This document shows positions 4,892-62,979 of a stretch of 64,000 bases of DNA, in pieces. The DNA comes from Hydra vulgaris (lineage: Eukaryota > Cnidaria > Hydrozoa > Anthoathecata > Hydridae), in the NCBI RefSeq assembly GCF_038396675.1, contig NC_088926.1, forward strand, positions 19,781,001 through 19,845,000, written 5' to 3'. Each line of letters opens with the position of its first letter. Positions within the stretch are counted from its first letter, which is position 1. Position numbers and translations under genes: made by a program. The notes beneath the pieces are model-generated. The model saw nothing but the letters and a program-made list of their open reading frames with translations, was not told the origin of the DNA and searched no databases.

Positions 4892-6214
4892 ACGGGTGAC
4901 AACTAAAAAACGAGACTAGATTTAAAGACACATATCTCTTTAAAGGAATAAGATTTTAAAAATAGGAAAACTTTTTTAGAAGGTATTTTTATTCTAGTTT
5001 TTAAATATTTTATGTGTTTTTATTTTTTATAGAAAAATGATTAAAAAAACAAATTCAAAACAAGAAGAGATTAGAAAAGGTGTGTATGAATTTTATTTAA
5101 ATTACAAAAATGTTGGTAAAAAGTTCACTTATGCCCACTTTAAAGTTGAGAATATACCTAAAAGTACTATCTACAAGATAATTAAACGTGCTGAAAGTGA
5201 ATCTGGGCACCAAAGAGTTCAAGGAAGTGGAGCAAAAGCTTAAAAAATGACCAGGACAAACATTGAAAGGCTCAAACTCATGTTTGATCATAAAGACGGA
5301 GTTTCTCAACGACAGGCAGCTAAAAAGTTCAACTGTACTCAGCTACACATTAGTAAAACATTAAAAAAAAGAACAAATATTAAATCAAGAAAAAAAATGA
5401 CGATTCCAAAACGCTCTGACCAGCAAAAAGCAGCAGCAAGAACTAAGTGCAGTCGGTTGTGTCTGAAATTCAAAAATCAAAACCAATCATTGACGATGAG
5501 TCTTATTTCACGTTAAATCACTCCAGTATCAATGGAAATGATATATTTTATACTAGTGATGTAAAATCTACTCCATCTACAGTTAAATACCAAACAAAAC
5601 AAAAGTTTTAAAAGAAATTACTTCTATGGACTGCTTTTTCTAAAAAATGGAGTTTCTCAACCTTATTTTGTACCAAGTGGATTGGCTGTTAATCAAAAAA
5701 TCTATTTAAACAAATGTATTAAGAAGAGACTTATTCCATTCATCAATAAGTATCATTCAGATAGGGCATATGTATTCTGGCCAGATTTAGCATCATCTCA
5801 CTATGCAAAAACAGTAATCATGTACCTAAACAAGGAAAACGTGCATTATGTTGAGAAAGCGGATAACCCTGCAAACTTGCCAGAATGTCGTCCTATCAAA
5901 AATTTTTGGAGTATTTTGAAAGGCCTTGTCTACAAGAATAATTGGCATGCAGAAAATCTTAAAAAATTACATTCTAGAATCAAGTATTGCCTTAATAAAA
6001 TTGATATTGAGTTCATACGGAGCCTAGCTCAGTCTATACCAGGCCTTGTTGATAAAGTCAGAAGAAATGGTTTAATTGAGAACAACTGATTATATATTTA
6101 AAAACTAGAATAAAAATACTTTCTAGAATATTTTTCCTTTTTGTTTTATCTCACTTCTTTCTTTAAAGAGATATGTGTCTTTAAATCCAGTCTCGTTTTT
6201 TAGTTGTCACCCGT
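4892..6214 (+). mobile_element. Tc1/mariner element nested in the hAT relic
   Basis: The element starts ACGGGTGACAACTAAAAAAC and ends with the reverse complement. It is bounded by TA at 4890-4891 and 6215-6216, the usual Tc1/mariner target duplication. The outer 54 bp of the inverted repeats (4892-4945 and 6161-6214) differ at one base, and similarity continues with indels to about 5013 and 6092. It contains one + strand transposase gene with several frame breaks. The near-identical ends suggest a fairly recent insertion compared with the surrounding hAT relic. Confidence 0.9.
5037..6089 (+). pseudogene. Tc1/mariner transposase, frameshifted, DD37E-like spacing with the last acid replaced
   Basis: Segment 5037-5243 is a helix-turn-helix region (KSTIYKIIKRAE). 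Segment 5247-5516 holds a second HTH (GVSQRQAAKKFNCTQLHISK) and runs in a shifted frame into the first catalytic block (DDESYFTLNHSS, about 5486). Segment 5682-6089 holds the second block (VFWPDLASSHYAK) and the third (NLPECRPIKNFWSILKG). From the second Asp to the expected third acidic residue there are 37 residues, as in DD37E groups. That third position, normally Glu in the RPIENFW-type motif, reads Lys (RPIKNFW). At least three frame breaks plus the lost catalytic residue make this copy inactive. The product would cut and paste at TA sites. Confidence 0.85.
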
Positions 6215-24588: not shown

Positions 24589-24998
24589 AAATTAAAGCAA
24601 AACTAAATGATTTAAAAGGCATGTACTTGTTGGGCTAATTTTTTTAGTTATTTTGGTTTATTTTTTTTATTCCTTATTTTATTTTTTTATTTTGTATGCT
24701 GTTATATAATTGTTTTTAAAAAGTCTAAATTTTATCGATATGCAGTAATATGTTTTATTGATATTAATAGACCGTCGGTTCAATCCTACCAAAAAGAATC
24801 GTGGACTTAAAGTAAAAAAATATTCAACCCAGAAAACGTTGGAAATCTCAAAACACGGTAATACCGTAGACTCAAATAAATCTATATCTCTTACTAAGGT
24901 ATCCGTTTTAAAATCCGGTTTTAAATTCGCTTACAAGTGCAGTTTTTGATGACTCCATTCATTACAAGAATTTTCATGATGAAGAGACATCATTTCAG

Positions 24999-25693
24999 CA
25001 ATGAACAATGAACATAGTAACAATAACATACAAAGTTATGACCATAATAACAGTAAGTTTTATAACGATGAACTTACTAACAATGAACATAGTAACAATA
25101 ACATACAAAGTTATGACCATAATAACAGTAAGTTTTATAACGATGAACTTACTAACAATGGAAGTAATACTGATAAATATGTCTGCAATGAACCAAGAGT
25201 CTATGAAAATAATATCGATAACCTCATTAAAAATAATGAAGTTTCTCAAGAACAAGTAAAAAATTCTTTTAAAAGCATGGCGGAGTTTCATAGCTTTAAA
25301 AGTTCGAACGAAAGTCAACACTCAACAAATATAACAGCATCACTCAACAAATATAACAACAAAACAAAAGAGAGACAAACAAAGAATCACACATTTATAA
25401 ATGCAGATCAGAGTCTTAGCGAGCCGACAAAAAATCACAATATATATTCCGAAGATGCTAATAATAAAATTCACGACTACAAAAAAATTATTCATCTCGA
25501 TATCGGACAGTTTCAACCAAGAAGATTAAGCACGAAAGACAGAGCAGCAATACGCCAAAAGCTCAATAGTTTAAACAAAAGTAATGTACAAATTAACATG
25601 CGAAATCGCACTGTATCGCTAGTAAAACAAGATGTTGGAAAAAATGAAGTATTAGTATGGTGTGATGATTCGGAAGAAGGAAATGACGTATAA
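24999..25693 (+). pseudogene. C-terminal exon of the upstream potassium-channel copy
   Basis: It opens after an acceptor (TTTCAG, 24993-24998) with phase 1, exactly the phase of the last exon of the intact channel. It codes for about 230 residues, hydrophilic and Asn/Ser/Lys rich, ending near IIHLDIGQFQPRRL then DRAAIRQKL and a 40-residue tail (VLVWCDDSEEGNDV). The intact channel shares [14 protein letters not shown] and DRANIRRKL and an upstream R/T-F-x-x-x-D-Q-S motif. The exon is open throughout and contains an exact 75-bp tandem duplication. Exons for S1-S6 are missing upstream, so it is probably an orphan, although an expressed gene with diverged or unassembled middle exons cannot be excluded. 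Confidence 0.7.
25004..25153 (+). repeat. Exact in-frame 2 x 75-bp tandem duplication
   Basis: Two identical 75-bp units, each encoding 25 residues (NNEHSNNNIQSYDHNNSKFY then NDELT). Identity at every base, including silent positions, indicates a very recent duplication or ongoing homogenisation. Confidence 0.97.
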
Positions 25694-29885: not shown

Positions 29886-31794
29886 ATTTTTCCACCTACC
29901 ACAGCAACCTTTAAATAAAAAACAAATTTGCGAAGGCGAAACTATTGAAATAAATTACCTTTTTTACTATTGAAAAAATAGCAAAAAAGGTAAAATATCT
30001 CCAAAACTTAATTTCGTCTACTTTTAAAACGTATAGTTTTAAGTATTTAAGTTAACACAAGTACATGTGTTAAAGTAAAAAAGCAAGGTAAAAAAATTAT
30101 TTTTCATCCAATAGGATAAAATTTTAAAAATAGTCAAAGCAATATGTTTTAGCTAAAACATATTGCTTTGATACTTTTGATGGCTTACTTAATGTAAAGC
30201 TCTCTTTTTTTATAAGTTTAGCATTATAGAAATTTATTTGAATATATATGTATTACTTTTTAAGGGGTGTTGCATAGATAAAATGAGAAAAATGTATAGA
30301 TAATATAAGAAGCGGCTGTATCAAAGATATAATAGGTAGACGTGAAATGATATGAATGGAGCTTGTATAAAAGTTAAAAAAGGGTAATAAAATTTATAAT
30401 AAATGAGTGTATAAAAATTATGAAAGTTAGGTGTATAAAAGATATGAAAGGTGGGTGTATAAAAGAAGTGAGAGGAAAATATATAAATGTTATGAAAGCT
30501 AAATGTACAACCGATATGAAAGTTGGATCTTTAAATTAGGCCTTAAAGTAACTTTTTTTCGCTTCTCTCTTAATTAAGAATATTTAAAGTTAAGCAAGTG
30601 AAATTTAGGTAATGGCTGTGAGCGATGAAGTGGTGAATGGTGGAGAGGTGTACAAAGACTGATAATAAATTACCATAAAATTGATGTATAATAAAATCAT
30701 ATAGAAAAAGAATACTTCGTATAATGTAAAAACATTTTCCTCTAAAAAAATATTTTTTAATTTACTTTTATGCATGTAATATAACAATATATTTGCGTTT
30801 ACATAGACTTTATCTATATTGATCTATATAAATCTAAATTATTTTTTTTTAGACAATAACTGGTATAAACATTTTCATAGTATTGCTCTCAATAGTAACC
30901 TTCTGTTTATCAACAGAACCGGTATTTAAAAGGCAAGAAAAGTTGTTTAATTCATTCGAAATATTCTATTGCATATTTTTCACTCTGGATTTAATTTTAC
31001 GAATTGTTTGTTGCCCTTCAATGGTGAACCTTTTCAAAGAATATCTCACGTGGTTTGATATAATTTCTATACTGCCATTTTATTATGAGTTTGTTTTTAA
31101 AAAAAGAGAAATTGGATTTTTATTACTTTTACGGTTGCTTCGTATATTTCGGCTACCTCGGTACTTCAAAGGTTTCCGAGGTATGATAGTAATAGGCGAG
31201 ACATTAAAAGCAAGCTTTGAACAACTATTGTTGCTAATATTAGTGCTTACGATTCCCATGGTGGTTTTTGCAACAATGGTGTATTATGCTGAAAAGGTAT
31301 TTTGGTATTTGAATTAAAAATAATTTTAAGATTTTGGTAGAGATAATGATTTTATATAGTATTTGTGTTTTTATTTTTAATTATTATTTAATATTATTAA
31401 AATATTATATATATATATATATATTATTATTATTATTTTTATCATTTTTATTATTTGTTATTAGTATTTTCTTATCTCTATGTTATTATTACCAGCTCAT
31501 TTAGTTTTATTTTCATTTAGTTTATTTAGTGGATAATTATTTTAGTTTATTTTATTATCATTTGAAGCTTGTATGTTTAATATTTAATCGCTTAATAAGT
31601 TTGAAACGCCTAGTTTTCAACGTTAAGAATGATTTTGAAGATAATTTCAATGCAAAAAAGTAAAAAAACTTCTAAATGCATTTAAGAATAAAAATGGTAC
31701 TTCACTAGTATAACTATAAATAAACCAGTAGGTTTGTTCAAAGAATTTTTCACGAATCTTTTTGATTAATAATATATATATATATGTGTGTGTG

Positions 31795-31883
<89 letters not shown>

Positions 31884-34800
31884 ATATATATATATTAGCA
31901 TTTAACTAGGAACTTTATGCCTCCTTCCTTAGGAGGCGTAAAGTTCCTAGTAAAAAGACGCCAGCTTAACCCAAAATGTCGCATTTTAGGTTAAGCTGGC
32001 GTCGAACCTCGCACCTCTTGGTTCTGAGCCAGAATTCTAGCAACTGCACCACCACCTTTATAAAAAAAATTATTATGTTATGTATAGTATAGTTAAAGTA
32101 TACTCTTTAAAGTAGTATACTCTTTAAACTATATAAGTTTATTAGAACAAAAGATTAAAATAGGATAGTTGTGGCAAATTAGCTTTTAAATGCCAAAACT
32201 TTTGTGGCAACGGCTCGACATTAGGTTTAAATTGTCGATTGGGACCATGTACGATTTTGTTGTGTGTTTATAAATTGTTTAAAATATTTTATAGTAAAAA
32301 TTAAAACAATTACTTCTAAAGTATCATACTCAAGATTCTTGTTTTACCTTGATTTTTCTAACTATTTGGAAATAAAGTTAGATGTCTGTTTCTAATTATT
32401 TTTTATAAGCATTTACTAAAGTTAGTATTGTTTCATACTGGTTTTTACCAAAAGAAAATTGTAATCTTGTGATAAATTTCAGGTCTAACACTAGCTCTAC
32501 TCTAACCAAAAGACAATTAGGCGTTAAGCTGTTGTAAAACCAAGAAACCATCAGTGTCGTTTTTTTATTAATTAATTAATTTATTTTTATTTATTTTGTG
32601 TGTGTGTGTGTGTGTCCTATAGCATCTTTAAAGTTCTCCCTTTTTGATTTTCGGTTTAACCTTAATGCCTAAAAAAAATTATGGTGAACAAATATATTTT
32701 TAAAAAATGACGTCATTGCTTTTTTATATTGTTGCTTTTGAGCGCTATGGTGTCTTTTATCGCTCTTATCGCTCTTTTGAGCGCTGTGGTTTTATCGCTC
32801 TTATATCATTGGAGTGTTTGCTGTTTTATTGCCTTTTTTTTTCAACTTTTTAATTTTTTTTTAACAATTTTGTAGTTAGGTAATAAGAAGTTTATTAACA
32901 GAGATAAATTTTTTTTTTATAAATTTTCTTTTTTTTTTACCAAAATATTAGAACAGTGATTCTAACTTCGAAAGCATTCCACGTTCATTTTGGTGGGCTA
33001 TAATTACTTTAACTACTGTTGGTTACGGTGATATGTCGCCAACTTCATTAGCGGGAAAAATAATTGGTGGATTTTGTGCCTCATTTGGAATACTCGTGGT
33101 TGCACTTCCGATATCTATTATTGGAAGTAATTTTTCGTTTTACTATTCTTACGCAAAAGCAAAAATGGAACTTCCTAAACACGAGAGCAAAGTTTTGAGT
33201 CAAAAGAATCAAAATCAAAGACTGAAAGATAAACAAGATGGTATTTTTCTTTATTTTCTATTTAAAACTATTATAAGTTTTTTTTTAAATTACAAAATAT
33301 TACAATTAATTCTTTTAACAGCAAAAATTTACAATACAATGGATGAAAAAGTGATAAAAAACTATGTTAAATAAGTACATTTCAGAGCCCTAGTTAAATG
33401 TCCTCTACAATGACAATAACATACAACTATTGTGTTGACTGCTGTATTTAGTTATAAAACAAGACAATAACAGTTGTAATTTTTTTACCGAATAGTTTCA
33501 TACAATAGTTAAGAACAATGCCGGATTTACTGTAGGGCTTTTTGAGCAAAAGCCCTGGGCCCCACATGTAAGAGAGTCTCTAATATAATAAAGAAATTAG
33601 TTTTAAGCCTACTTTCGTAAACAATTAATGTTAAGTCTTTATAAAACTTGACTTTATTTTCCTAATAACTTATGTTAACAGCTTAACACTGATTGGTTAA
33701 TGACAATTTCTTGGATCAAGGAGAAGAGATCACCTGCTGAGAGATTTGTAACATATTTGTAACATAGCAAATCAGGGACATGCAGCGCAATATATGCTTG
33801 AGACCATTTTGAAATTTCTAATTCACAAAAAATTGATATTAAGTGTTGTTGTGGGCAGTCATACGACAATGCCTCAGCAATTAGTAGAAACTACGAAGCT
33901 GCACAAATAAAATTTAAAGAAATTAGCAGTTTGGATACTTTTTGTTGGATATTCTCTGAATTTGGTAGAAGTGGCTTCAGCTGAGAGTTGTTCGAGTGCT
34001 GTGAGTTTTTTTAACATTATTGAGGAGCTGTAAAAATGTTTGTTGTACCAGTTACACACGTCGTTATGAGATGCTGTGGAAAGTTTTGAAAGGAGAAGAT
34101 AATAACGGTGAATGTTTACCTAAAAAATTAGCGCAATGCGCTATTTTTGTCGAGTAGATACTAATTAGGCTCTTGCAAATGGCTATTCGCAAACTGGAGA
34201 TGTGCTCCATAAACCTGTTAATGACAGAGATAATCTAGCTGAAGTACGCTGCAAAGCTCTGGGTCTTTATGCGCGCTTGCTGCCTCTGGAAACTAAAATA
34301 TACTTAATACTCTAGAATGACATCTTTTAAATTAAAAGCTACAATTAAATAACAATGTGTCCAGCATCGAGTCACAGAAGGAGTTTGTTATATTAAAATG
34401 TAATTATTTTGAAAAAAAAGGAGCAAAAAGGATTAGAGAAAGCTGGCACATAAAAATATTTGATAACTTCTTCAAGAACTCAAAATGTAAGACTAACTCC
34501 CTTAGACTGTGTACATGCAACTTCCACTCAAATGTCGCTTGATTACGTGGAAATTTCGTGATGAGAGCTTCATTACCGATGAGTAATGAGGCTCTCTACG
34601 CGGAAATATTGTTTCCTATAATGAAACTCATCAAAAATAGGCTGTATACCTCAGTGCTTCAACAACGATGTAACAACCAGGCTACTAGGAGTATTGAAAA
34701 AGACATCATAAGAGTAATGAACTTTAATGATATTGTCAATGACATTGCAAGACCAAAAAACTAGAAAACTACATTTATGATTTATTTCTAGTATTATAAA

Positions 34801-37761: not shown

Positions 37762-39947
37762 AGTCTTTTGTTTTTTCTTTTTTTTTCAATATATTGTACA
37801 TATATATACTGTATCTATATAAAGTAAATACACTTAGAGTGTTTTTATTACTTTTGCTTTCTTTGTTCCGCCGAATTTTTTTTCTTAGAGCTGTTTTTTA
37901 GCAAAGTCGCACGTAAAGTATCTAAAGCACGTAAAGTATCTAAAAAAAATACTTTAAATATTTTTAGGAATAACGAACATCATCTTTTAATTATTACAGA
38001 TGGTCAGATGATGTTAAATGTGCTTCATACTTGTTTATTAAAACGCATTTCTAAGGTTAGTATGTCATAGCTAATGCTGATGAACCTGAGACCACTTTTG
38101 ATGTATCACAAATTTTTGTTGCTGTTTTAGGGTAGTTCCTCAACCTTTCACCTTGTGCATTTGCTAAAAACCTTTTAAAAGGTCTAATTACTGAAATTTT
38201 ATTGGCTGACGCTAATGGCTACAATTTGGTGGGGAAGACAACGAGAATTAAAAGAAGAGTAGTTATCCCCAAAAAAAAGTTTTATATTTATTCAAAGGCT
38301 TCGCATGTTTAATAAAATGTTTCAAACATAATTAAAACTGGATATCTTTGACGTAGCCATTTTCATCTGCACCAAATATATACGGAGGGACCATTGTTAA
38401 TAAAATAATCTTTGTAATTACTGCAAGGAAAAACACTTTAAAAGGCATATAAAGCCGTTACCACTTTACCATTTGTTTCTCTGTTCTTAGAGATTATTGC
38501 AGAAACATTTTTTTGCCATCGGTTGCTTCAATTTTACTACTTTAATACTGAAAACACACCAAATTTGCAAATGTTCCATATTAATCAAGCGCTCAATTCT
38601 CAACATTAAATGATGTTGCTCTAACAAGACTAATTCCGTTAGGTTAGGTTTCCTAATAGAAAGTTAAGGATTTCAATTTAAAGTTTGCGTATGTACCCAC
38701 CACCAAAATGCAATATTTTTAAGAAACATTATACAATGGAAATGTACCTGCAAAGGTCTAATGATAAAAATTGTTTGTGATGTGACAAGTTATAAGTGCA
38801 CGGTTTACTGAGATAATAACTTTTAGGAGTAGTTTCTTTAGACAGTTTCCTTAATTGCGTGAGACTTTCGATGATGTTCATTCTGATTTGAACCACCTAC
38901 CCAGCACAATAAAAGAAATCCCCCGCAATATTAAACTAAGCTTATCTGCCGTGTTATTAAATAAAAATTTCAAATGTTAATTCTATAAAACTATTTTAAA
39001 ATGTCTATTAAAAGCAAAATACATTTATTTTTAACTAGTGCCTAATTAAATTTGTTATAAAGGAAAGTTTATAAAGAAGTTTTTTTTTATATATAAAATG
39101 AATTGTAGATCAATTTAAAACAAATTTTATTTTTATTCTAGATGATCTTTTTAATTCTGTATATAAGAAGCTTCAAAGTGTGACCACAACAAATGAAGAA
39201 AATAATGCACAACGCTTAGCTCATACAAACAATTCCTATAGTTTTTTAAATTTTTCAGAATCAGCCAAATTGGATGATACAGCTTCGTCCGAGAATAAGG
39301 TTATCGATAACTGCACTCAAACCTGTAAGTTTAATGAAGAATATAAAGAAACTTCATTTCAATTTACTAACAATAAACCGAGTAACAATCAACTTGTTGA
39401 CGATGAATATATAATTAGTATAAGCGCTAAAAACGAAGGTAGTCACAAAGAAAAAAGTCATAAGAAACATAGCAAAAACGAAGATAACGAAATTGAAAGT
39501 AGTAAAACAGAGAATGAAGATAGCTGTAAAGTTGAAATTATTGTTCCAAACAGAAATAACCAAATTAAGTTTACAAAATTAAAAACAAGTCATGCTAACT
39601 TAGAAGAACCTTGCAATTTTGAAATTTTAGACGAAGGATCGGTCATCAAATTTGAAAATCAAACAAATACGAGACCAATTAGAAATCGCTCTTTCACAAC
39701 AATTGATCAGAGCAGCGTTTGTAATTTGATAAAAAATCATCGCTCTTTTACAACCACAGATGAAACTACATACAGCGATTCAACTAACCATCATCCTAGA
39801 TGCTCTGTGGAACTAAATAAATTAAACCACGAAAACAAACAAGTAATCCATCTTGATATTGTGCAATACCAACCAAAAAAGATAACTAACAGGGATAGGG
39901 CAAACATTCGCAGAAAACTCGTTTACAGAAACACCATACACAGGTAA
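28642..39947 (+). CDS. Voltage-gated potassium channel alpha subunit, Kv family (Shaw/Kv3-like), five exons
   Basis: Plasma-membrane channel, four subunits per pore, opening on depolarisation to let K+ out. Exons: 28642-28935, 29307-29534, 30853-31296, 32952-33240, 39142-39947. All junctions are GT-AG and keep frame (phases 0,0,0,1), giving 686 residues. T1 tetramerisation domain about 19-125 ([28 protein letters not shown]) with zinc motif H86-x5-C92-x20-C113C114, found in non-Shaker Kv channels. S1 177-195, S2 208-228, S3 237-256, S4 with R268, R271, R274, R277, K280, R283, S5 296-319, filter TVGYGD 344-349, S6 358-384. The usual S6 PVP hinge reads PIS (375-377), which is odd. The C-terminal tail is long and hydrophilic. 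The start is the second codon of an ATG ATG pair or the first. Which Kv subfamily it truly belongs to needs a tree. Confidence 0.93.
29307..29534 (+). CDS. Kv channel exon 2 (end of T1 and linker)
   Basis: Residues 99-174. Acceptor TTTTTAG at 29301-29306, donor AAT then GTATGT at 29535. ELEFWGVDE and QPCCW complete the T1 zinc site; a charged linker to S1 follows. Confidence 0.9.
29798..29881. repeat. (TA)n microsatellite in Kv intron 2
   Basis: About 42 TA units in the 1.3-kb intron. The rest of the intron is A/T-rich with an inverted repeat aaagcaatatgttttagcta/…aacatattgctttg at 30138-30170. Confidence 0.96.
30853..31296 (+). CDS. Kv channel exon 3 (S1-S5)
   Basis: Residues 175-322. Acceptor after a run of ten T (TTTTTTAG), donor AAG then GTATTT. 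It holds S1 to S5 including the voltage sensor. S2 carries TLDLILR where most Kv channels have T-F-E-F-x-x-R, so the charge-transfer acid is Asp here. The S1-S2 and S3-S4 loops are short. Confidence 0.93.
31785..31882. repeat. (TG)n microsatellite in Kv intron 3
   Basis: About 48 TG units with one CG variant, preceded by a short (TA)n. A second short (TG)n lies at 32597-32616. Confidence 0.97.
31905..32057 (-). mobile_element. tRNA-derived SINE with two internal foldbacks, in Kv intron 3
   Basis: The minus strand has an A-box-like start (GGTGGTGGTGCAGTTGCTAG, from 32057), the phrase ttctggctcagaaccaag shared with 19752-19842, and a B-box-like GGTGCGAGGTTCGAC. The body is unusual: 31957-32003 and 31905-31951 are each near-perfect hairpins with arms of about 21-22 bp (gacgccagcttaaccc… and actaggaacttt…). 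The aggaggcgtaaagttcc phrase corresponds to ggaggcgtgaacttcc of other copies. Confidence 0.7.
32952..33240 (+). CDS. Kv channel exon 4 (pore loop and S6)
   Basis: Residues 323-418 plus one base. Acceptor ATATTAG, donor GATG then GTATTT, phase 1. It encodes [21 protein letters not shown]6 with [20 protein letters not shown], and the start of the cytoplasmic tail. Confidence 0.93.
33322..33374 (+). CDS. Possible alternative short terminal exon of the Kv channel
   Basis: Acceptor CTTTTAACAG (33312-33321) lies 81 nt after the exon 4 donor. In phase 1 it gives [17 protein letters not shown] and a stop. The 81-nt intron is itself free of stops in frame, so retaining it would also give a continuous protein with 27 extra, largely hydrophobic residues. 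Use of this exon would make a channel of about 436 residues lacking the long tail encoded at 39142. Evidence is the splice signal and phase only. Confidence 0.45.
33516..35021 (+). mobile_element. hAT element relic inside Kv intron 4
   Basis: The left end CAATGCCGGATTTAC and right end GTAAACCCGGCCCTG are degraded inverted repeats (the family form is close to CAGGGCCGGATTTAC). The flanks gttaagaa (33508-33515) and gtaagaat (35022-35029) look like an 8-bp target duplication changed by an indel. Internally the + strand reads [20 protein letters not shown] (33855 onward), then [13 protein letters not shown] and [11 protein letters not shown] in shifted frames (33945-34035), the DUF4371/RNase-H-like core of hAT transposases. 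[20 protein letters not shown] (34690-34755) follows. Stops throughout; the C-terminal dimerisation domain is missing. Confidence 0.8.
35922..36060. repeat. Foldback element with arms of about 50 bp
   Basis: The left arm tttatacctatgtcaaatga… through …gggatgac and the right arm …gccatccc through tcatttggcataggtataaa are reverse complements with a few mismatches, around a centre of about 40 bp. A miniature inverted-repeat element in the composite region. Confidence 0.7.
36568..36642 (-). repeat. tRNA-like (SINE head or tRNA pseudogene) segment
   Basis: The minus strand shows TTGGCCAAGAGGTTAATG (A-box-like) and, about 40 nt on, GAGTTCGATTCCCG (B-box-like). No 7-bp acceptor stem or credible anticodon arm can be drawn, so a functional tRNA is not supported. 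Confidence 0.45.
37703..37759. repeat. (TA)n microsatellite in Kv intron 4
   Basis: About 28 TA units. Confidence 0.95.
37780..39100. other. Remainder of Kv intron 4, nothing recognised
   Basis: AT-rich, no gene supported. A direct pair gcacgtaaagtatctaaa occurs at 37908-37943. Confidence 0.4.
39142..39947 (+). CDS. Kv channel exon 5 (cytoplasmic C-terminal tail)
   Basis: Acceptor TTATTCTAG (39133-39141). Phase 1 joins GAT-GAT ([17 protein letters not shown]) to exon 4. It encodes 267 residues, charged and Asn/Ser/Thr rich, with two R-S-F-T-T-x-D repeats (about 39690 and 39741) and a conserved end [23 protein letters not shown]. It stops at 39945-39947. The last codons (CACAG then GTAACT) form a good donor, so the true end may lie on a further exon; the paralogous exon at 24999 continues about 40 residues past this point. 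Confidence 0.88.
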
Positions 39948-54164: not shown

Positions 54165-55740
54165 GTTATTTTTTTATTTTTTTTTTTATTTTTTTATTTA
54201 TTTGCCGTATAATATTATTTACACTAAGATTTATAATATTATACGGGCAGGACTTCAAGAAGATCGTAATGACCTCATCACGAAGCCCTTAACAAAACTC
54301 TATTTTCTTCTACAATAAAAGCATCTATATACTTTATAAAATAAATATATACCGAGAATATATAATCACTAAATATATCATAAATTTAACACTCTACATA
54401 CTTCAGAAGTGAAATTCAAAATAAAACATAACAAAATGCTGTATAACAACTGAAAATATTTTTTAAAAAATCAAAAAAAATCAAGAATATTTTATGTTGA
54501 AAAAATGGTTTTTTTTAATAGATTGTTTGAAAAAGGAATAGGTCAATTTAGATGAAGAAACAAAATTAGTCCGTACTATTTCATTCCAGAGAAAATGTCC
54601 ACGATAAGATATACAAAATTGAGCTTGTTTATTATTGCAAAAGGTTTTTCTAAAATGCTATTATTACGTAGGAAATATTTGTTTTGGGGTTTAATTATGT
54701 GAAGGTGTACAGAAACATCGGGGGACATAAGTTCTTTACATTTGTACATTAAACACAAAACATTAAATACATTTAATTGATAAACACTTCAGGCGTCCAT
54801 TTCTTTAAAAGGCGGTTCAGAGTTCGAAAAACAACTTTTAAAATTTATTATGTGAGCTGCGTGTTTCTGATGCCAATAAAGAGATTTAAGTTTAGTTTTA
54901 TGTGTACTTCCCCATATAATATTTGCATAATTGATATGACAGTGAATAAAAGAGTAATATAATTGTGTTAATTGCTTTTTGTTTAAAATACCTCTAGATT
55001 TGTATAGAATTCCAATGTTTTTTGCAACTTTATTAGAAATATTATTGATGTGTGATTTCCAAGACAAATTTTCTTCAATAAAAACTCCTAAAAATTTTGT
55101 CACTTTTTCTCCTTTTAGGATGACATTGTCTATAAAAAGATCAGGCATATTTACAGGCAGTATCTGTTTTTGATAGTTTGGATGGAAAAGTATCCGTTTT
55201 TTTTTTTCGACATTTAAAGATTATTCTTTTGAACCAAAATGAAATTTTTTAAGTTGTCTGTTCATATTATTAAAAAGTATGTTTATATTTTCATGTGGCT
55301 GAAACAAGTTTGTGTTGTCTGCAAAAATTATAGTCTTTAAATTGGATACTTTGTTAAGACCATTTATATATATAAAGAAAAGAAGTGATCCAAGTATGGA
55401 TCCTTGTGGGACACCACATGTTATGTTTGAAGTTGGGAATCTTTGTTAAAAACAAATTGCTTTTGGTTGGAGAAATAACTTTTGAACCAACTTAAAGTTT
55501 TTCCTGCTATGCCAAAATATTTAAGTTTTTTAAGCAAAATATTATGATCGACCTTGTCAAAAGCTTTTGACAAGTCAATGAAAACACCAAGAGTAAATTT
55601 TTGATTTTTAAAAGATTCGTTAATACAACGTGTTAATTGAAGAATAGCATGTTCGGTTAAGTTGTTTTTTTTAAACCGAGCTGATTTTCGTAAAGAAGTT
55701 TATTGGTAATAAGGTATGTGTACACTTTGTTATGCATTAT
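54165..55740 (-). pseudogene. LINE (CR1/jockey-like), downstream half: RT palm to 3' end
   Basis: Minus strand, starting at the insertion point of the 5.9-kb element: MHNKVYTYLITNKLLYENQ, then LGVFIDLSKAFDKVDHNILL (catalytic Asp, about 55590-55530), a damaged VPQGSILG block (about 55410) and a FADN version of FADD (about 55330). The C-terminal part is open at 55148-54789 (KFLGVFIEENLSWKSHINNI; LYYSFIHCHINYANIIWGST). A 3' UTR follows, ending with gatgaggtcattacgatctt cttgaagtcctgcccgta and an A-rich tail near 54165-54200. Together with 61648-61950 it forms one retrotransposon relic. Frameshifts and the altered FADD box mean it is dead. Confidence 0.85.
55736..55740. repeat. Left target-site duplication of the 5.9-kb element
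   Basis: ATTAT, matching ATTAT at 61648-61652. If the element ends are drawn one base further out (TAGTAGG…CCTACTA), the duplication reads TTA (55737-55739 and 61649-61651). Confidence 0.75.
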
Positions 55741-56053
55741 AGTAGGAGAGAATTAGCGAAAAATAGGGTCCAACCCGGACAAATATAGTATAAAGCTGAA
55801 ACTTTGAAGAGAGAAAGTAGACAGTGTCTGGATGAGCGTAAAAAAAATCCCCGTTGATTGCGCTACGGGAACATCCCTTTTAGAGCAATTTGGGGTACAA
55901 AAAAGGGGCAATTTTGACAGCACCAAAATATCATAAACTTTATATCGTTGGATCGAAAATTTTATGCTGATTAATATTTATATAAGAACTATTTCTTGAA
56001 AAAAAACTATTTTTTAAGTTATTTACGTTTGAAAAGTGTAAAATCGTTAAAAT
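55741..56053. repeat. Left terminal inverted repeat of the 5.9-kb element
   Basis: Shares long blocks with the right repeat: cagtgtctggatgagcgta (one mismatch), cgggaacatccctttt, gcaatttgggg, aacaccaaaatatcat-like and atttatataagaactat, ending near acgtttgaaaagtg. Confidence 0.92.
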
Positions 56054-56208
56054 GTTATATTTTTTTGTTTTCAAAACATAATAATATAACTTTTGTCTGT
56101 GCGCAATTTTAAATGGGAAAAAATTAGAAAAAAATATATTCTTTTAAAATAACTTTAAGACTTAAATGCAAATTTCTTTAAAATTAGATGTCCGATATCT
56201 TACTTTTC

Positions 56209-56745
56209 TCAAAACAAATCATCAAATAAATTTCTCTCGTTTTCAATTTCATCACTTGAATCTTCTTTAATTTCAAAATCCGAAAAATGCAAAATATTTG
56301 TATTCCAAAATCAACAAAAATATTTAAAGAAGATGATGTGTATATTTAAAAAAAAAATTTACCGTTTTATTGTTTATACTGCAGTCTTGCCCATGACAGC
56401 CACCGCATGCAGACATGCATTTTAATCCGTTTTTCCTGCAAGAACACATATTAGTTCCGCACATATTTCTTGACGAAGTTTTACAATCGTAGCGAATCAC
56501 TTTTAATATATTGGGTGGTGCCACATCTTTGTCTGTTGGTATTGGAAGAAGACAACCATTATCTAACTTCCATCCCCATTCTTTAGGATCCAAGTTAAAA
56601 GATTCATCTAGCATTTTCCATTCAACAACTTGTAGGTGAACTTTAAGACCATGAAAATAAGCAGCACGGTCTGTGGGTGGTAACTTTTCTGGCTTAATAA
56701 TTCCTTCAAAAACCATTTGTTTATATTTTAAATACCTAAAAAAAA
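56209..56745 (-). pseudogene. C-terminal exons: Cys-rich module and acidic tail
   Basis: YLKYKQMVFEGIIKPEKLPP, then VHLQVVEWKMLDESF, DPKEWGWKLDNGCLLPIPTD and a Cys cluster (MCGTNMCSCRKNGLKCMSAC then GGCHGQDC; eight Cys within about 35 residues, probably binding zinc). A second piece at 56283-56209 reads SDFEIKEDSSDEIENERNLF DDLF and a stop, the acidic end typical of the family. Its acceptor is not visible, and a donor-like ACG|GTAAAT precedes the gap at about 56362. Confidence 0.75.
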
Positions 56746-56829
56746 CACTATGAAAATATGACACTTTCTAAATCTAAATGAGTGACTTAAATCCACAAAA
56801 TTATAATTAAACTTTCAAATACCAACTGC
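56746..56829 (-). other. Short spliceosomal intron in the element gene
   Basis: Between RKMQ (56835) and YLKYKQM (56742) the minus strand shows GT-rich donor choices (CAGTTGGTATTTG) and an acceptor TTTTTTTTAG directly before GTATTTAAAATATAAAC. A donor at CA|GTTGGT gives phase 2 and an in-frame join. Length about 85-90 nt. The exact donor is uncertain. Confidence 0.55.
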
Positions 56830-57694
56830 ATTTTCCTTAACGAAGATTCTGCATTTCCACCAAAAAGTTCAATGAATGCCCTTACTGCAGATTCTCCAAC
56901 TTCTTTTTTGGTTGCCCAGTAATCCAAAATAATTTCAGATACTGATTGTATATTATTGGATTTTTGCAGTAAATTTAAAAAACTAGGTTTTCCTTTTCCC
57001 AGTATTGAAGATGGCGAGTCACATCCTGACCATGCGTGAACAAATAGCAGATGTTCTTTAAAATCCATTACTCGAGATTGAGCGTCTTTAATACTCCAGA
57101 GTTTTTTCTTTCTTTCTTGATAAAAAAAAATATTATTTAATTCATCTTTCCAATGATACATTAGCATAACTGCTATATCAGTATCATCAGCAACAACAAT
57201 GCATGGTGAAATTTCCTTTGCAACTTCCAACGATTTAGAGACAATTTTCGTGTCAGCATCCCCTTTGAAAATATATACTTCATATCCATCTCGTTTAAGG
57301 TAATCTGACAAAAGTAAAATTAGTTGTGCCTTGTTGTGTGAATTCGATTGTGTGAACGCTCTTGTGAGTACGGAAAGTTGTGTGAACGCTCTTGTGAGTA
57401 CGGAACTTGATTATTTTCTCTTATAACAAGATTTTGGGAAGAACCTTTGCATTTTCTTCTGATGTATTCATTAGATTTAATTGAAGATTTCTTATCATAA
57501 CCATCAAATATAATATAAGTGGTGGCATAATTTTTTCTTATGTAGCTGATGTAGATCTCAACAATTTCTACAAACCTCATACCTTTGTTCCAAAGAACTT
57601 TGTGGAGTAAGGAACCTCCATCAAGGACATATTTGCACAAACTGACATTTGTACTTGCTTTAATTTCGTCGTCAGGAAGAATCACTTTGCGCAA
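56787..57694 (-). pseudogene. FEN1/XPG-like PIN nuclease region of the element protein
   Basis: Conserved acidic motifs in family order: IIFDGYDKKSS (about 57508), GDADTKIVSKS (about 57263), CIVVADDTDIAVMLMYH (about 57200-57140), and LFVHAWSGCDSPSSILGKGK (about 57040-56990). The last resembles the GCD-x-x-x-G-x-GKG/helix-hairpin-helix approach of XPG-type nucleases. The acids D, D-x-D and DD-x-D are all kept, so the site would be competent apart from the frameshift at 57311-57400. That shift coincides with two direct copies of gtgtgaacgctcttgtgagt acggaa (57342-57405). Flap or structure-specific DNA cleavage is the expected activity of the fold; it is not proven for this family. Confidence 0.75.
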
Positions 57695-58695
57695 AGATGG
57701 TTATTTTTAAATAATGACTGTGAGAGATGAGTAAGCTCATAATCAAAATATAGTTCAACTACATCCTCTCTTTCTGCAATTGCTGCAAGTCTATTAAAAA
57801 GGAGTGTTGGATCGACACAACAATCAGTTTGTTTGTCTAGCTTTACGCTATTGGTCAAAACATCCAAAGAAAAAAATGTATTCTTCTTTTTAAACTTTGC
57901 TTCATTGAACTTAAGGCCGCTGAGAAATGTTTGTAGACGAACACCTATGTTCTCAGCCTCGTCACAATTGACAAGATCTTCACCATTGACTGACACAAGA
58001 CCCGTAGATAATGAATATAGATTTCTATCGACAGCATTGAATGGATTTCTTACAGAAAACAAGTCATAAAACAACTCATAATGTTCATAATCACATACTA
58101 ATCTTTTAACACCCATTTCTTTATTGCTTTCCGTAACTCCGATGTCAAATCCAGATAACTTATGCATTGCTTCATGAACACTTGCTGAATAACAGATGCT
58201 GATTGTCCATAGGTTGCGTACATTTTTATCAAGTCCTCTACCTCTAGTTAAACCACCATTGCATTTAAAAGACCGCATCAGGGTCTGCTCTATTACAAGA
58301 TCAAAAGATAGGCCAGCCCAATACCTTTCAGATCGGCGCACTGCGTGACGACCATCTAAGAATTGTTGATGTAACCATGGATTCGTTTCTGAAAGGTATT
58401 GCATTTCTTGCAAATATAACTTGAAGCACTTGGTATAATTTGAATGCCCTGATGCGGCAAATAAGTTTAGCATTTTTGAGATAATTTGAAGATGCAAGTA
58501 CCAGTTACAAGTTCTCTCTGCAACTAAAAATTTCTTTATGATACTTATATAGTATATGTACAAGATCCAAAGTTTTGCTGTGCGTGATTCATATGACTTC
58601 TTTTCCGTATAGGTTAATATGGCACATTCAATATTTTTGAAAGCATCCGCATTATCAAGTCTGATTAACTCTTCCTCATTCATACCATTTTGCAT
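57682..58695 (-). pseudogene. Central conserved region of the element protein
   Basis: 337 residues open. Blocks RTCNWYLHLQIISKMLNLFA, HQQFLDGRHAVRRSERYWAG, LSFDLVIEQTLMRSFKCNGG then LTRGRG and SVHEAMHKLSGFDIGVTESN are the hallmark order of the family between the core and the PIN region. Their function is unknown to me. No membrane segments. A DDE-type catalytic triad is not obvious by eye. Confidence 0.75.
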
Positions 58696-60132
58696 AATAT
58701 GACATCAATGCACTCCGGACCAACATGCGACCTCTTAAAGCTCTTGCAACAGCTTTTCCTTTAAGCATATGTTTTACTGTATCTTCAAAGTAAACTTGTT
58801 CTAAAACTTTTTCCAGGCCAGTCCCTGCCATTAGTTTTCCAATGCTTCCGAGAAAGCTCATCATTGTGTGAAACCCTCCGAGTCGACATACTATATTGAG
58901 GTTCTGATCTTTTATAACACCAAACGCTTTCTGCCATAATGGATGATCAAACGTAACGCAGGTAGTAACTATTTTATATTTACTGGCTTCATCAATAATG
59001 AACAATAGTGTAGAATATATGCATGTTTCATCTGAAGAATTTAAGTCAATAATAGGTAAAAATTTTATGGATGCTTTTTCATAAACTGTTTTTGATTGTG
59101 ATGTAGTATGCATCATATAACCTGACCAGTTTGGGTGAGGACTATTTCTTGAACTAAAAAACCATGCCACATGCCAAATAAGATCAAGATTCATTTCGGG
59201 CGCACGGAATACTTCAGATACAATATTTCTTATTGGTTTAAAACTTACATTTAATAAACCCTGATAGCTTGATCCGTGATAAGGCGTTATTTTTAAAGAC
59301 ATATCAATAATTTTTTAATAGACTTAGGTTTCAAACGTGTTATGCTTTCATAATTGTATTTAGAAGACGAACATATTGATATTAAACCCATTCCGTTAAA
59401 CGTTCCTTTTCCGGTCAATGTTCGAATGTCGTGATCTAAATTATCAGCGACCCAATGTAGGAAGTTCGGCTCTTGTTCTTGCACGGCATTTACTCTACTA
59501 ACTGCAGCAGATAACTTGAACAACTTAACTTCATCGGAGGAAATTGAAAATCCAAATTTGTAAAGGTGATCCACAAGCCATTTTGTTTCAAAAGATTTAT
59601 CGATATCTACTCCAATTCCAAATGGAATTGGTGCTATCATAGATCTTGGTCGCAAAGCTTGAGCAATGCATTGTCCTAAACTAATTTGTCGAAGCTTAAC
59701 TGAAATTAAATAGCTTAGAAATAGCTGTAAACTCTTTGGAACCCATTTGAGTCCATATTTAATTTCACCTATATCCTCTAGTGACGGATATACAGATTTA
59801 TCGACATTCATTCCTCTGATTTCGCTTTTAATTATACTTGCAGCGGCAGAAATAATATCATTTTTAGTGTGATCTTTCTTTTTTTGAAATTTCGATATAA
59901 CAAAAGAAGCCATATCTCTGAAAAAAACTAAATTAGATTGACCAGAGAGTTCTCCAAAAAAAATATGATCACGATAATGTTCAAGTAATTTTCGTTTTAA
60001 AGATTTCGTCGAGTAACACGGATAACCATTACTAAGTTCTTTCATTTTAATGTGCACATCTGAAAGAGTATAAAGTTCGCAGTCAGTTTCTTCTTCTAAC
60101 CAGAAACAGAGTTTCTCAAAATTCTCAAACAT
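58676..60132 (-). pseudogene. Core conserved region of the element protein
   Basis: 60132-59293 includes SIGVD-type text (APIPFGIGVDIDKSFETKWL, FLHWVADNLDHDIRTLTGKG then TFNGMG). 59302-58676 includes LDLIWHVAWFFSSRNSPHPN then WSGYM, FLPIIDLNSSDETCIYSTLL, TCVTFDHPLWQKAFGV and IVCRLGGFHTMMSFLGSIGK then LMAGTGLEKVLEQVYFEDTV. The aspartates in VDNLDHD, PIIDLN and TFDHPLW and the H in GGFHT are the best candidates for an RNase-H-like active site, but this is a guess from conservation in memory. The frame break at 59300 lies in an A run. Confidence 0.75.
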
Positions 60133-60179
60133 AATGAGATCTAATGGGCATCAACGTTGGTTGTCGCTTTTAGTTTTAA

Positions 60180-60500
60180 GCCTGAAGTTGTTCATACACG
60201 AAATATGATAAATAGCTTCTTCCGCTACAAGATCATAACAAGACATCAAACAAGAATGTACAGCATTTCCCCAATCATTCTCTCAATTCAATGAACGTTC
60301 AATCATTTTTTTAATTAATGGTATGGTCTCAACTTTCGAAATCATGGAATGTTTGTGATCTACCTTTTTAGTACAAAGAAAACATTTTCATTTCATTTCA
60401 AATACCTCTTCAAATGAGGATCGTAGTTTCTTTCTTGGAACGTATAATGATTGATCTTTACGACAAACTTTCTTCTACAGCTATGATGAACTAGTACTAT
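60180..60500 (-). pseudogene. N-terminal zinc-binding region of the element protein, with stops
   Basis: Frames around two stops read HHSCRRKFVVKINHYTF (about 60495-60445), KCFLCTKKVDHKHSM (about 60390-60345) and DWGNAVHSCLMSCYDLVAEE then AIYHISCMNNF (about 60280-60190). The order H-x-x-C, C-x-x-C, …H-x-x-x-C looks like one or two zinc sites. This matches the N-terminus of the family and shows that the true start lies upstream of the ATG at 60132. Confidence 0.6.
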
Positions 60501-60654
60501 TGTATGATTATGCGTGTTCTGTCGGAACTTGTCTCTAAGAAAACTAAAAATATGCAAAAATCTTTCTCAAATTATAGCTACGTTACAATTGAGTTTAGAA
60601 TTAAAACTTAACCTAACTTTACGTTTTTTGAGTAATAAAATTGAAAACAAAAAA

Positions 60655-60790
60655 CAAAAAAAACATTGTTGATGTCAACTTTACTTGACCTCCCCCTCCC
60701 GAGTGTCACAATTGTCAAAAAAGTTCAAACCCACTTCCTCCCTATTTTGTTGACGTAAATAATGGGCAGACCCTAATTTGAAATGATTCG
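60655..60790. repeat. GC-richer repeat fragment ending in an ACGTAAATAATGGGCAGACCC-type end
   Basis: tgacctccccctcccgag and gacgtaaataatgggcagac recall the paired G/C-rich, end-facing structure of the composite element at 35347-36939, but no second end is found. It sits between the element gene and its MITE. Confidence 0.35.
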
Positions 60791-60993
60791 GAAAATTATT
60801 GAGCTATTAATTTAACTTAATTAATTAATTAATTTAACAAACTGTGCGAAAAATCTTATTTATAAGATTGTATATTTAAACAAATTTTAACCTGCATAGT
60901 TCATTCATACTCCGTTCTTTGCTTAATCGAATCAATGTTTTGAGACCTTTTCCATATACTTTGACATAACTTTCTTTGTCAAACCCAAGCTTG

Positions 60994-61154
60994 CAGCGCC
61001 GTGCTGTAACTTTTGGGGGCCCTGTGCAGAAACTGAAAAAAAAATTTTTTCTTTTAATTCGTAGTAATTTATGGTATTGGAGAAGTTTTTCTAATTTATT
61101 TAATAGGGGGCCCAGTGCGATTGCACTTGTTGCACTTGCGATAGTACGGCGCTG
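60994..61154. mobile_element. 161-bp hAT-type MITE inside the 5.9-kb element
   Basis: It begins CAGCGCCGT and ends ACGGCGCTG, is flanked on both sides by CAAGCTTG (60986-60993 and 61155-61162), an exact 8-bp target duplication as hAT elements make, and has inner complementary tracts (tttgggggccct / agggggcccag). The target is itself a palindrome (contains AAGCTT), so flanks plus ends read as 17-bp perfect inverted repeats. Confidence 0.85.
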
Positions 61155-61349
61155 CAAGCTTGCACAATACGCAAACAGCATTCATTTTTTTTTCAAATGT
61201 AAAAACTTTTACTACACGTAACGTTTAACTTGTAAGTTTTACTTTTCCATATAATGGTTTCAATATAATAGGACACAACCTTTTTTCGGAGTAAAACTAA
61301 AACTTTTGAAAACAAAAAATCGAATGAAGTTTTGCGCGGCACTCACTTT

Positions 61350-61647
61350 TAACACTTTTTCACTTTTCAAACGTAAATAACGTAAAAAATAATTGTTTTC
61401 AAGTCATAGTTCTTATATAAATATTGATCAGCATAAAATTCTCGAATTAACGATATATAATTAATGATATTTTGGTGTTGTTAAAATTAGCTTATTTTTT
61501 GCCCCAAATTGCCTCAAAAGGGATGTTCCCGTTGCGCAATCAATGAGGCTTTTTTTCTACGCTCATCCAGAGACTGTCTACTTCCTCTGTGCAAAGTTTC
61601 AACTTTATACTATTTTTGTCCGGGTCAACTCGCAATTCTCTCCTACT
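61350..61647. repeat. Right terminal inverted repeat of the 5.9-kb element
   Basis: Reverse complement of the left repeat with about 85-90% identity by eye. The outer nine bases are identical. Confidence 0.92.
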
Positions 61648-61952
61648 ATTATTCTTTCTAATATTTTTGAAAATTAGGAACAAAGAAATAGGTCCGTAAT
61701 TTGTTATATTGGTCGGGTCTCCTGTCTTAAAAATAGGAATTACTTTTGCTATTTTCAGAGAGTCCGGGAAAGAACCTTGTTTAATGGATGATTTAAAGGT
61801 TGTGTGAAGAATATCTTTCATGACATCATAAAAGCCTATCACAATATTTCCATTTTCAATTATCATTTTCAATTTCTTGTTATTTTCAGTTTGTAAATTC
61901 TTGTTAAATTCAGTTATCATTTTCAATTTCTTGTGAAATAAATGTTTTGAAG
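61648..61952 (-). pseudogene. LINE, upstream half: RT N-terminal blocks, 5'-truncated
   Basis: The minus strand reads QGSFPDSLKIAKVIPIFKTG then DPTNITNYGPISLF (family form G-x-x-P-x-x-x-K-x-A-x-V-x-P-I-x-K-x-G-D-x-x-x-x-x-N-Y-R-P-I-S). After a 1-nt shift it reads FSKILERI up to the insertion point. The endonuclease and ORF1 are missing: sequence homology ends near 61952, as in a 5'-truncated insertion. It carries a repeated aattgaaaatgataa motif at 61860-61925. Confidence 0.82.
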
Positions 61953-62216
61953 TACTCTTGCATTTAAAAGAAAATTTTTAAAATATACGTAATAAAAGTA
62001 AAAATTATAAACAATAATTAGAACTAATTATTTTAAACAACTACAAAAAACATTAAATTTTCGATTCTAACTTAATATTCAAAAAGATAAATTATTTTTA
62101 AAATAACTTATTTCTTCTTTGAGTATCAAACAAAGTTCCTATTTTCTAATATAGCAGTTTATTTTTGTTAGTTAAACTAACAAAAAAAAAACAATTCACA
62201 GGTTGATTTATTTGCC

Positions 62217-62979
<763 letters not shown>

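Follow-up and report, generated by a model that had tools for sequence, protein, structure and literature searches.

A decayed Hydra vulgaris transposon with whole ends and a fused XPG/FEN-type nuclease, probably of the AcademX type

Introduction

Does a widespread, unnamed family of animal proteins belong to transposons and, if so, to transposons of which type? The question is raised by a 64-kb stretch of the Hydra vulgaris genome (C7:19781001-19845000; hereafter the window), in which a gene for one such protein lies between long terminal inverted repeats (TIRs). The original prediction, made from the letters of the window alone, had drawn a complete transposon there at 55741..61647, with inverted repeats of ~300 bp, a flanking duplication, a single long minus-strand gene and a protein bearing a PIN nuclease, and had proposed an Academ-like element. 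Here we compare the element with its copies and relatives in the 911.5-Mb host assembly of 15 contigs. We conclude that it is probably an AcademX-type cut-and-paste DNA transposon, of which the window holds an old copy that has lost its activity, and that the protein family is transposon-encoded, at least in this genome.

Results

Element ends and target-site duplication

Local alignment of the two ends of the element as inverted repeats gave a score of 446, against a best score of 109 in 100 shuffles and of 94 for other pieces of the window. Within the first and last 330 bp, 271 of the 306 aligned positions are identical; the predicted repeats of ~300 bp are thus borne out. Comparison of multiple copies re-set the ends, giving a span of 55740-61648 (5,909 bp): both ends do lie in the window as had been claimed, and each of the boundaries drawn to the base proved to be short by 1 bp. 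Two occurrences of the nonamer TAGTAGGAG are found in the window, against an expected 0.14, and they lie exactly at the element ends, at 55740-55748 (plus strand) and 61640-61648 (minus strand); 1 of 100 shuffles likewise gave two occurrences.

A search of the host genome with the left end returned 40 scored matches out of 216 candidates, some of the matches being right ends because the TIRs cross-match. Twenty stretches were extracted, 11 of which were two-ended by BLAST, and one further two-ended copy (L042) was added by pattern, which with the window makes 13 copies; other genomic copies with the same ends, which the original prediction had suggested looking for, therefore exist. Left outside the count of target-site duplications (TSDs) were stretches whose second terminus was not seen (L033, L034, L038, L043, L049, and L050), together with L048, whose second terminus is poor (three mismatches), and L047, which lacks a left terminus.

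Taken alone, the window copy allows the duplication to be read in two ways, as TTA with TAG termini or as ATTAT with AG termini. The 5-bp reading was dropped because none of the 11 other two-ended copies found by BLAST fits it. The 13 copies settle the reading as a 3-bp TSD with termini of TAGTAGGAG that carry a few substitutions, and an exact 3-bp TSD is present in 8 of the 13 (TTA, TAT, TAG, TAA, TAT, ATT, TAA, and TAT), confirming the flanking duplication; at the base composition of the window, the chance of eight or more such matches is 2e-10, a figure at most doubled by the examination of two end frames. In L044 the TSD is GTG only when the terminal base is counted as a substitution. L037, L040, L041, and L042 are without an exact 3-bp match.

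The 11 other two-ended copies align with the window through gene and ends, their aligned pieces having 88-96% identity, and the family is therefore not young. Most of these copies, too, are split into several frames.

Protein domains and conserved residues

The gene, which probably has introns, encodes in order a Cys/His domain, a transposase, a nuclease and a CXC domain (Table 1). Conservation was assessed in an alignment of 97 of the 120 listed matches to the 1,298-aa read-through, those of at least 1,200 aa. Both Asp of ADNxDH, the Asp of TFDQPL, the His of GGFH and the Glu of DLxIEQ are kept in all 97, and these residues presumably include a DDE catalytic centre. Six nuclease Asp are likewise kept in every one of the 97; the seventh is kept in 96, the remaining row having a gap there. 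The active site of the nuclease is conserved as strictly as that of the transposase. All of these transposase and nuclease residues are found in the pieces of the window copy as well. Nine C-terminal cysteine columns are 97-100% conserved in the 68-69 alignment rows that reach them; the strict CXC pattern occurs in 35 of the 97 homologues, and the window copy retains eight of the nine cysteines, the first being Tyr.

Fold comparison identifies the nuclease as XPG/FEN/EXO1-type, so that the predicted PIN nuclease stands as a nuclease and is more exactly named by this fold. It shares the fold of FEN1/EXO1/XPG (Rad2) nucleases and differs from them in being fused to a transposase; its motifs match what we take to be the seven active-site carboxylate positions of Rad2 nucleases, with Asp-Ala-Asp in place of the glutamate pair of FEN1. 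For the transposase, the best structural neighbour of a homologue's model was Hermes (hAT), a weak match, and on this modelling the core probably has a hAT/Hermes-like RNase H fold. Foldseek with transposase model P0002 gave no match at E ≤0.001, which is weak evidence either way since P0002 begins past the first-Asp motif; a sequence search of the PDB found nothing with a single sequence and one chance match with a profile.

Pfam scans of the window pieces and homologues found no model that attains its cut-off on the family proteins. Residues 238-428 of P0193, past the second catalytic Asp, matched DUF6589 (PF20231) at E 1e-5 with 24.7 bits against a cut-off of 27, and a remote kinship between the transposase and this family of unknown function is possible; DUF6589 was unmatched at E 1 in 20 other homologues.

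Diverged relatives in the same genome

When the host genome was searched with the protein, at least 148 matches were obtained (119 scored of 917 candidates), among them two diverged relatives bounded by TIRs of their own. The first, L059, has 48% identity in one stretch and 32% in another, and has long open pieces that cover all domains, separated by partly intron-like gaps, one of which holds six stops in 36 codons. Over 146 bp its TIRs show 90% complementarity, and ends placed by eye on the alignment give TTG as the TSD and a left end that begins with A rather than T; an automatic placement of these ends had overrun the TIRs without yielding a TSD of at least 3 bp, and was replaced. The second, L060 with L061, is 43% identical in one open frame of 1,054 aa, of which 345 of 370 residues are identical to Hydra vulgaris LOC136084858 (P0037), in keeping with Hydra vulgaris as the host; its TIRs begin TAGTCTAGTC and align with a score of 239, where 40 shuffles reached 46 at most, and its TSD is ATA. 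The three groups, very different in protein, have (T/A)AG termini, 3-bp TSDs and domain order in common. Two diverged homologues in this genome thus do have flanking TIRs, and the proposal that the family is transposon-encoded holds within it.

These relatives also bear on whether a host or other gene was trapped by chance between unrelated inverted repeats and is not the element's own transposase. The gene of the window copy is broken and is hence no proof of function by itself, which counts in favor of trapping. The 11 other two-ended copies, however, align through gene and ends, the presumed catalytic residues are kept in the 97 aligned homologues, and, because two diverged relatives, too, have this protein enclosed by TIRs of their own and 3-bp TSDs, trapping is very unlikely in this genome.

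The L059 pattern (47-49% identity over about residues 24-169) was found in at least 15 places; 14 of the 15 are free of stops in that stretch, which suggests that the L059-type group amplified more recently. A further transposase relative, at G000:C14:2116304-2116702, is listed with an open frame of 2,251 aa, longer than other members; listed frame lengths can span intron-like stops (the 1,003 listed for L059 is in fact split), and that this relative is a fusion is no more than a guess.

Classification

Two traits separate the described Academ lineages. According to Kojima (2023, PMC10045372), AcademX has a TSD of 3 or 4 bp and AcademH, its sister lineage, one of 9 or 10 bp, a difference tied to a nuclease in the former and a helicase in the latter. 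In bivalves, the mean length of Academ consensus elements is 5,565 bp (PMC10294476). The Hydra elements share with AcademX, so far as that description extends, a putative DDE-type transposase together with a nuclease, TIRs, a length of about 5.6-6 kb and a 3-bp TSD, the latter exact in 8 of 13 copies and present in one copy of each of the two diverged relatives. The nuclease has the XPG/FEN/EXO1-type fold and a conserved active-site Asp, and on the described features we found no difference from AcademX. These results support the Academ-like assignment of the original prediction. The Hydra family is a new member, or possibly one already catalogued, of a known type of transposon; in a literature search, no paper was recognised by its title or abstract opening as describing it.

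An independent origin must be weighed against this assignment, in which the family would be a separate, undescribed DDE superfamily that gained its XPG-type nuclease and 3-bp stagger by itself and only resembles AcademX. Three observations lean that way and away from AcademX: the kinship rests on described features and not on Academ sequence, no Pfam model reaches its cut-off, and the weak structural neighbour is Hermes. We nevertheless regard this as unlikely, since both AcademX features described by Kojima, nuclease and TSD of 3 or 4 bp, are present in an element of typical length, and independent convergence on both is improbable.

Membership in hAT, Kolobok, Zisupton/KDZ or AcademH is highly doubtful. 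TSDs are 8 bp in hAT and Zisupton/KDZ and TTAA in Kolobok, and those found here are TTA, TAT, TAG, TAA, and ATT; the 9 or 10 bp that Kojima gives for AcademH likewise differ from the 3 bp of the window element, whose accessory domain is a nuclease and not a helicase. From hAT (Hermes) the element differs further in its extra XPG-type and CXC domains and its long TIRs. In favor of these groups stand the position of Hermes as best structural neighbour and the cysteine-rich domains that KDZ transposons have. At E 1, a Pfam scan of 20 full-length homologues gave no helicase, and no much longer (helicase-bearing, AcademH-like) relative was found at E 0.01 among 968 candidates, a search that used one Hydra piece as query and does not imply absence.

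Proposed mechanism and significance

For this AcademX-type element, we propose that one gene gives a single protein that would recognise the ~300-bp TIRs with its Cys/His domain, near the N-terminus, and its CXC domain, near the C-terminus, both of which probably bind the ends or the target. The putative DDE centre would cut the ends that start with TAG, the cut ends would be joined to the target at a 3-nt stagger, and repair fill-in would leave the 3-bp TSD. The fused XPG/FEN/EXO1-type nuclease would most likely trim or resolve a branched, flapped or hairpinned end during excision or insertion. Excision of hAT elements makes hairpins and, if hairpins arise here as they do there, a flap- or branch-cutting nuclease would by analogy be a fitting partner. 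It is rather improbable that the nuclease serves as a second catalytic centre without which the element cannot work, one that resolves the hairpins or gapped, branched ends left by a hAT-like core and sets the 3-bp stagger, making these elements a two-nuclease machine across animals; in its strongest form this would set the family beside Academ as a separate superfamily. What the fused nuclease does is testable because its active site is as strictly conserved as that of the transposase. Base-exact ends, a settled 3-bp TSD and the full protein order are now given for a family poorly covered by Pfam, and three diverged groups in one genome tie a widespread protein family to transposons.

State of the window copy

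The window copy is an old, decayed copy with whole ends: "complete" holds for its ends and fails for its gene. There is one gene on the minus strand as predicted, and an intact reading of it is broken by three in-frame stops in the Cys/His exon, successive frame breaks between pieces, a missing stretch and a nested insertion. About 65 bp are absent near 58694 and present in 9 of the 11 other copies, with L032 and L036 having gaps of their own there. The nested element proper, at about 60994-61154, lies inside the N-terminal exon and is absent, with both flanks present, from 10 of the 11 other copies (L037 is without one flank; L042 was outside the comparison). It looks like a hAT-type miniature inverted-repeat transposable element, and its flanking duplication follows the 8-bp rule for hAT-type elements.

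Table 1. Coordinates of the transposon, its gene and the adjoining features in the window.
Feature	Position	Strand	Evidence
Left TSD, TTA	55737..55739	+	3-bp TSD rule from 13 copies
Left TIR, ~300-340 bp, begins TAGTAGGAGAGAATTAGCG	55740..56080	+	TIR alignment, copy comparison, terminus count
C-terminal exon, CXC (tesmin/TSO1-like) domain	56324..56767	-	
XPG/FEN-type nuclease, second half; GDAD, DDTD, GCD motifs; Asp codons 57258-57260, 57252-57254, 57183-57185, 57177-57179, 57018-57020	56787..57410	-	
XPG/FEN-type nuclease, first half; DGG Asp codon 57620-57622, FDGY Asp codon 57503-57505	57320..57700	-	
Open piece, helical insertion region and presumed catalytic Glu (DLVIEQ, codon 58288-58290)	57682..58704	-	
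Open piece, second catalytic Asp (presumed; TFDHPL, codon 58946-58948), conserved His (58868-58870)	58676..59314	-	
Open piece, presumed first catalytic Asp, motif ADNLDHD (codons 59443-59445, 59434-59436)	59293..60150	-	
Exon, Cys/His domain (C-x2-C ... YHxxC), three in-frame stops	60151..60450	-	Conserved C and H alignment columns
Nested ~160-bp TIR element (CAGCGCC...GGCGCTG) with flanking 8-bp duplication CAAGCTTG	60986..61162	.	N-terminal exon
Right TIR, ~300-350 bp	61299..61648	-	TIR alignment, copy comparison, terminus count
Right TSD, TTA	61649..61651	+	3-bp TSD rule from 13 copies
Downstream half of split LINE reverse transcriptase, RVT_1 E 2e-9	55421..55699	-	Pfam, flank join
Upstream half of split LINE reverse transcriptase; listed open frame continues into element	61649..61977	-	Flank join

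A decayed reverse transcriptase (RVT_1) of a long interspersed nuclear element (LINE) is cut in two by the transposon (54789-55699 and 61649-61977). When the flanks are rejoined with a single TTA, an open reverse-transcriptase stretch, FSKILERIMHNKVYTYLITNKLLYENQ, runs across the junction, and the element therefore inserted into an older LINE; the LINE itself is decayed, with frame changes on either side of the junction. Just outside the element lies an (AT)n microsatellite of 284 bp (62217-62500), and the window holds further (AT)n arrays.

Distribution of the protein family

One protein piece had 272 relatives and the 1,298-aa read-through had 306, and the descriptions here draw on the best 120 of each. 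Among the matches listed are Hydra vulgaris P0006 (77% identity over 58%), Clytia hemisphaerica, the sponge Dysidea avara, the sea cucumber Holothuria leucospilota and the limpet Patella caerulea, and database labels for the family read "uncharacterized" or "Tesmin/TSO1-like CXC domain-containing". The family alignment was also run against viral contigs and against the genomes of bacteria and archaea, where it gave 54 and 40 pattern stretches, respectively, none of which was confirmed as a relative.

Other features of the window

Two open frames with similar ends (HLDIGQFQPRRLSTKDRAAIRQKL for one), at 24983-25693 and 39102-39947, one of which has a 75-bp tandem repeat, are perhaps exons of duplicated genes. 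A fragment at 5565-6089 was judged by eye to resemble the C-terminal part of a Tc1/mariner transposase; a Pfam scan of these three segments gave no match. Exons resembling those of a voltage-gated potassium channel lie at 30853-31317 and 32952-33374 (Ion_trans E 1e-19 and 1e-14), with the TVGYGD pore motif.
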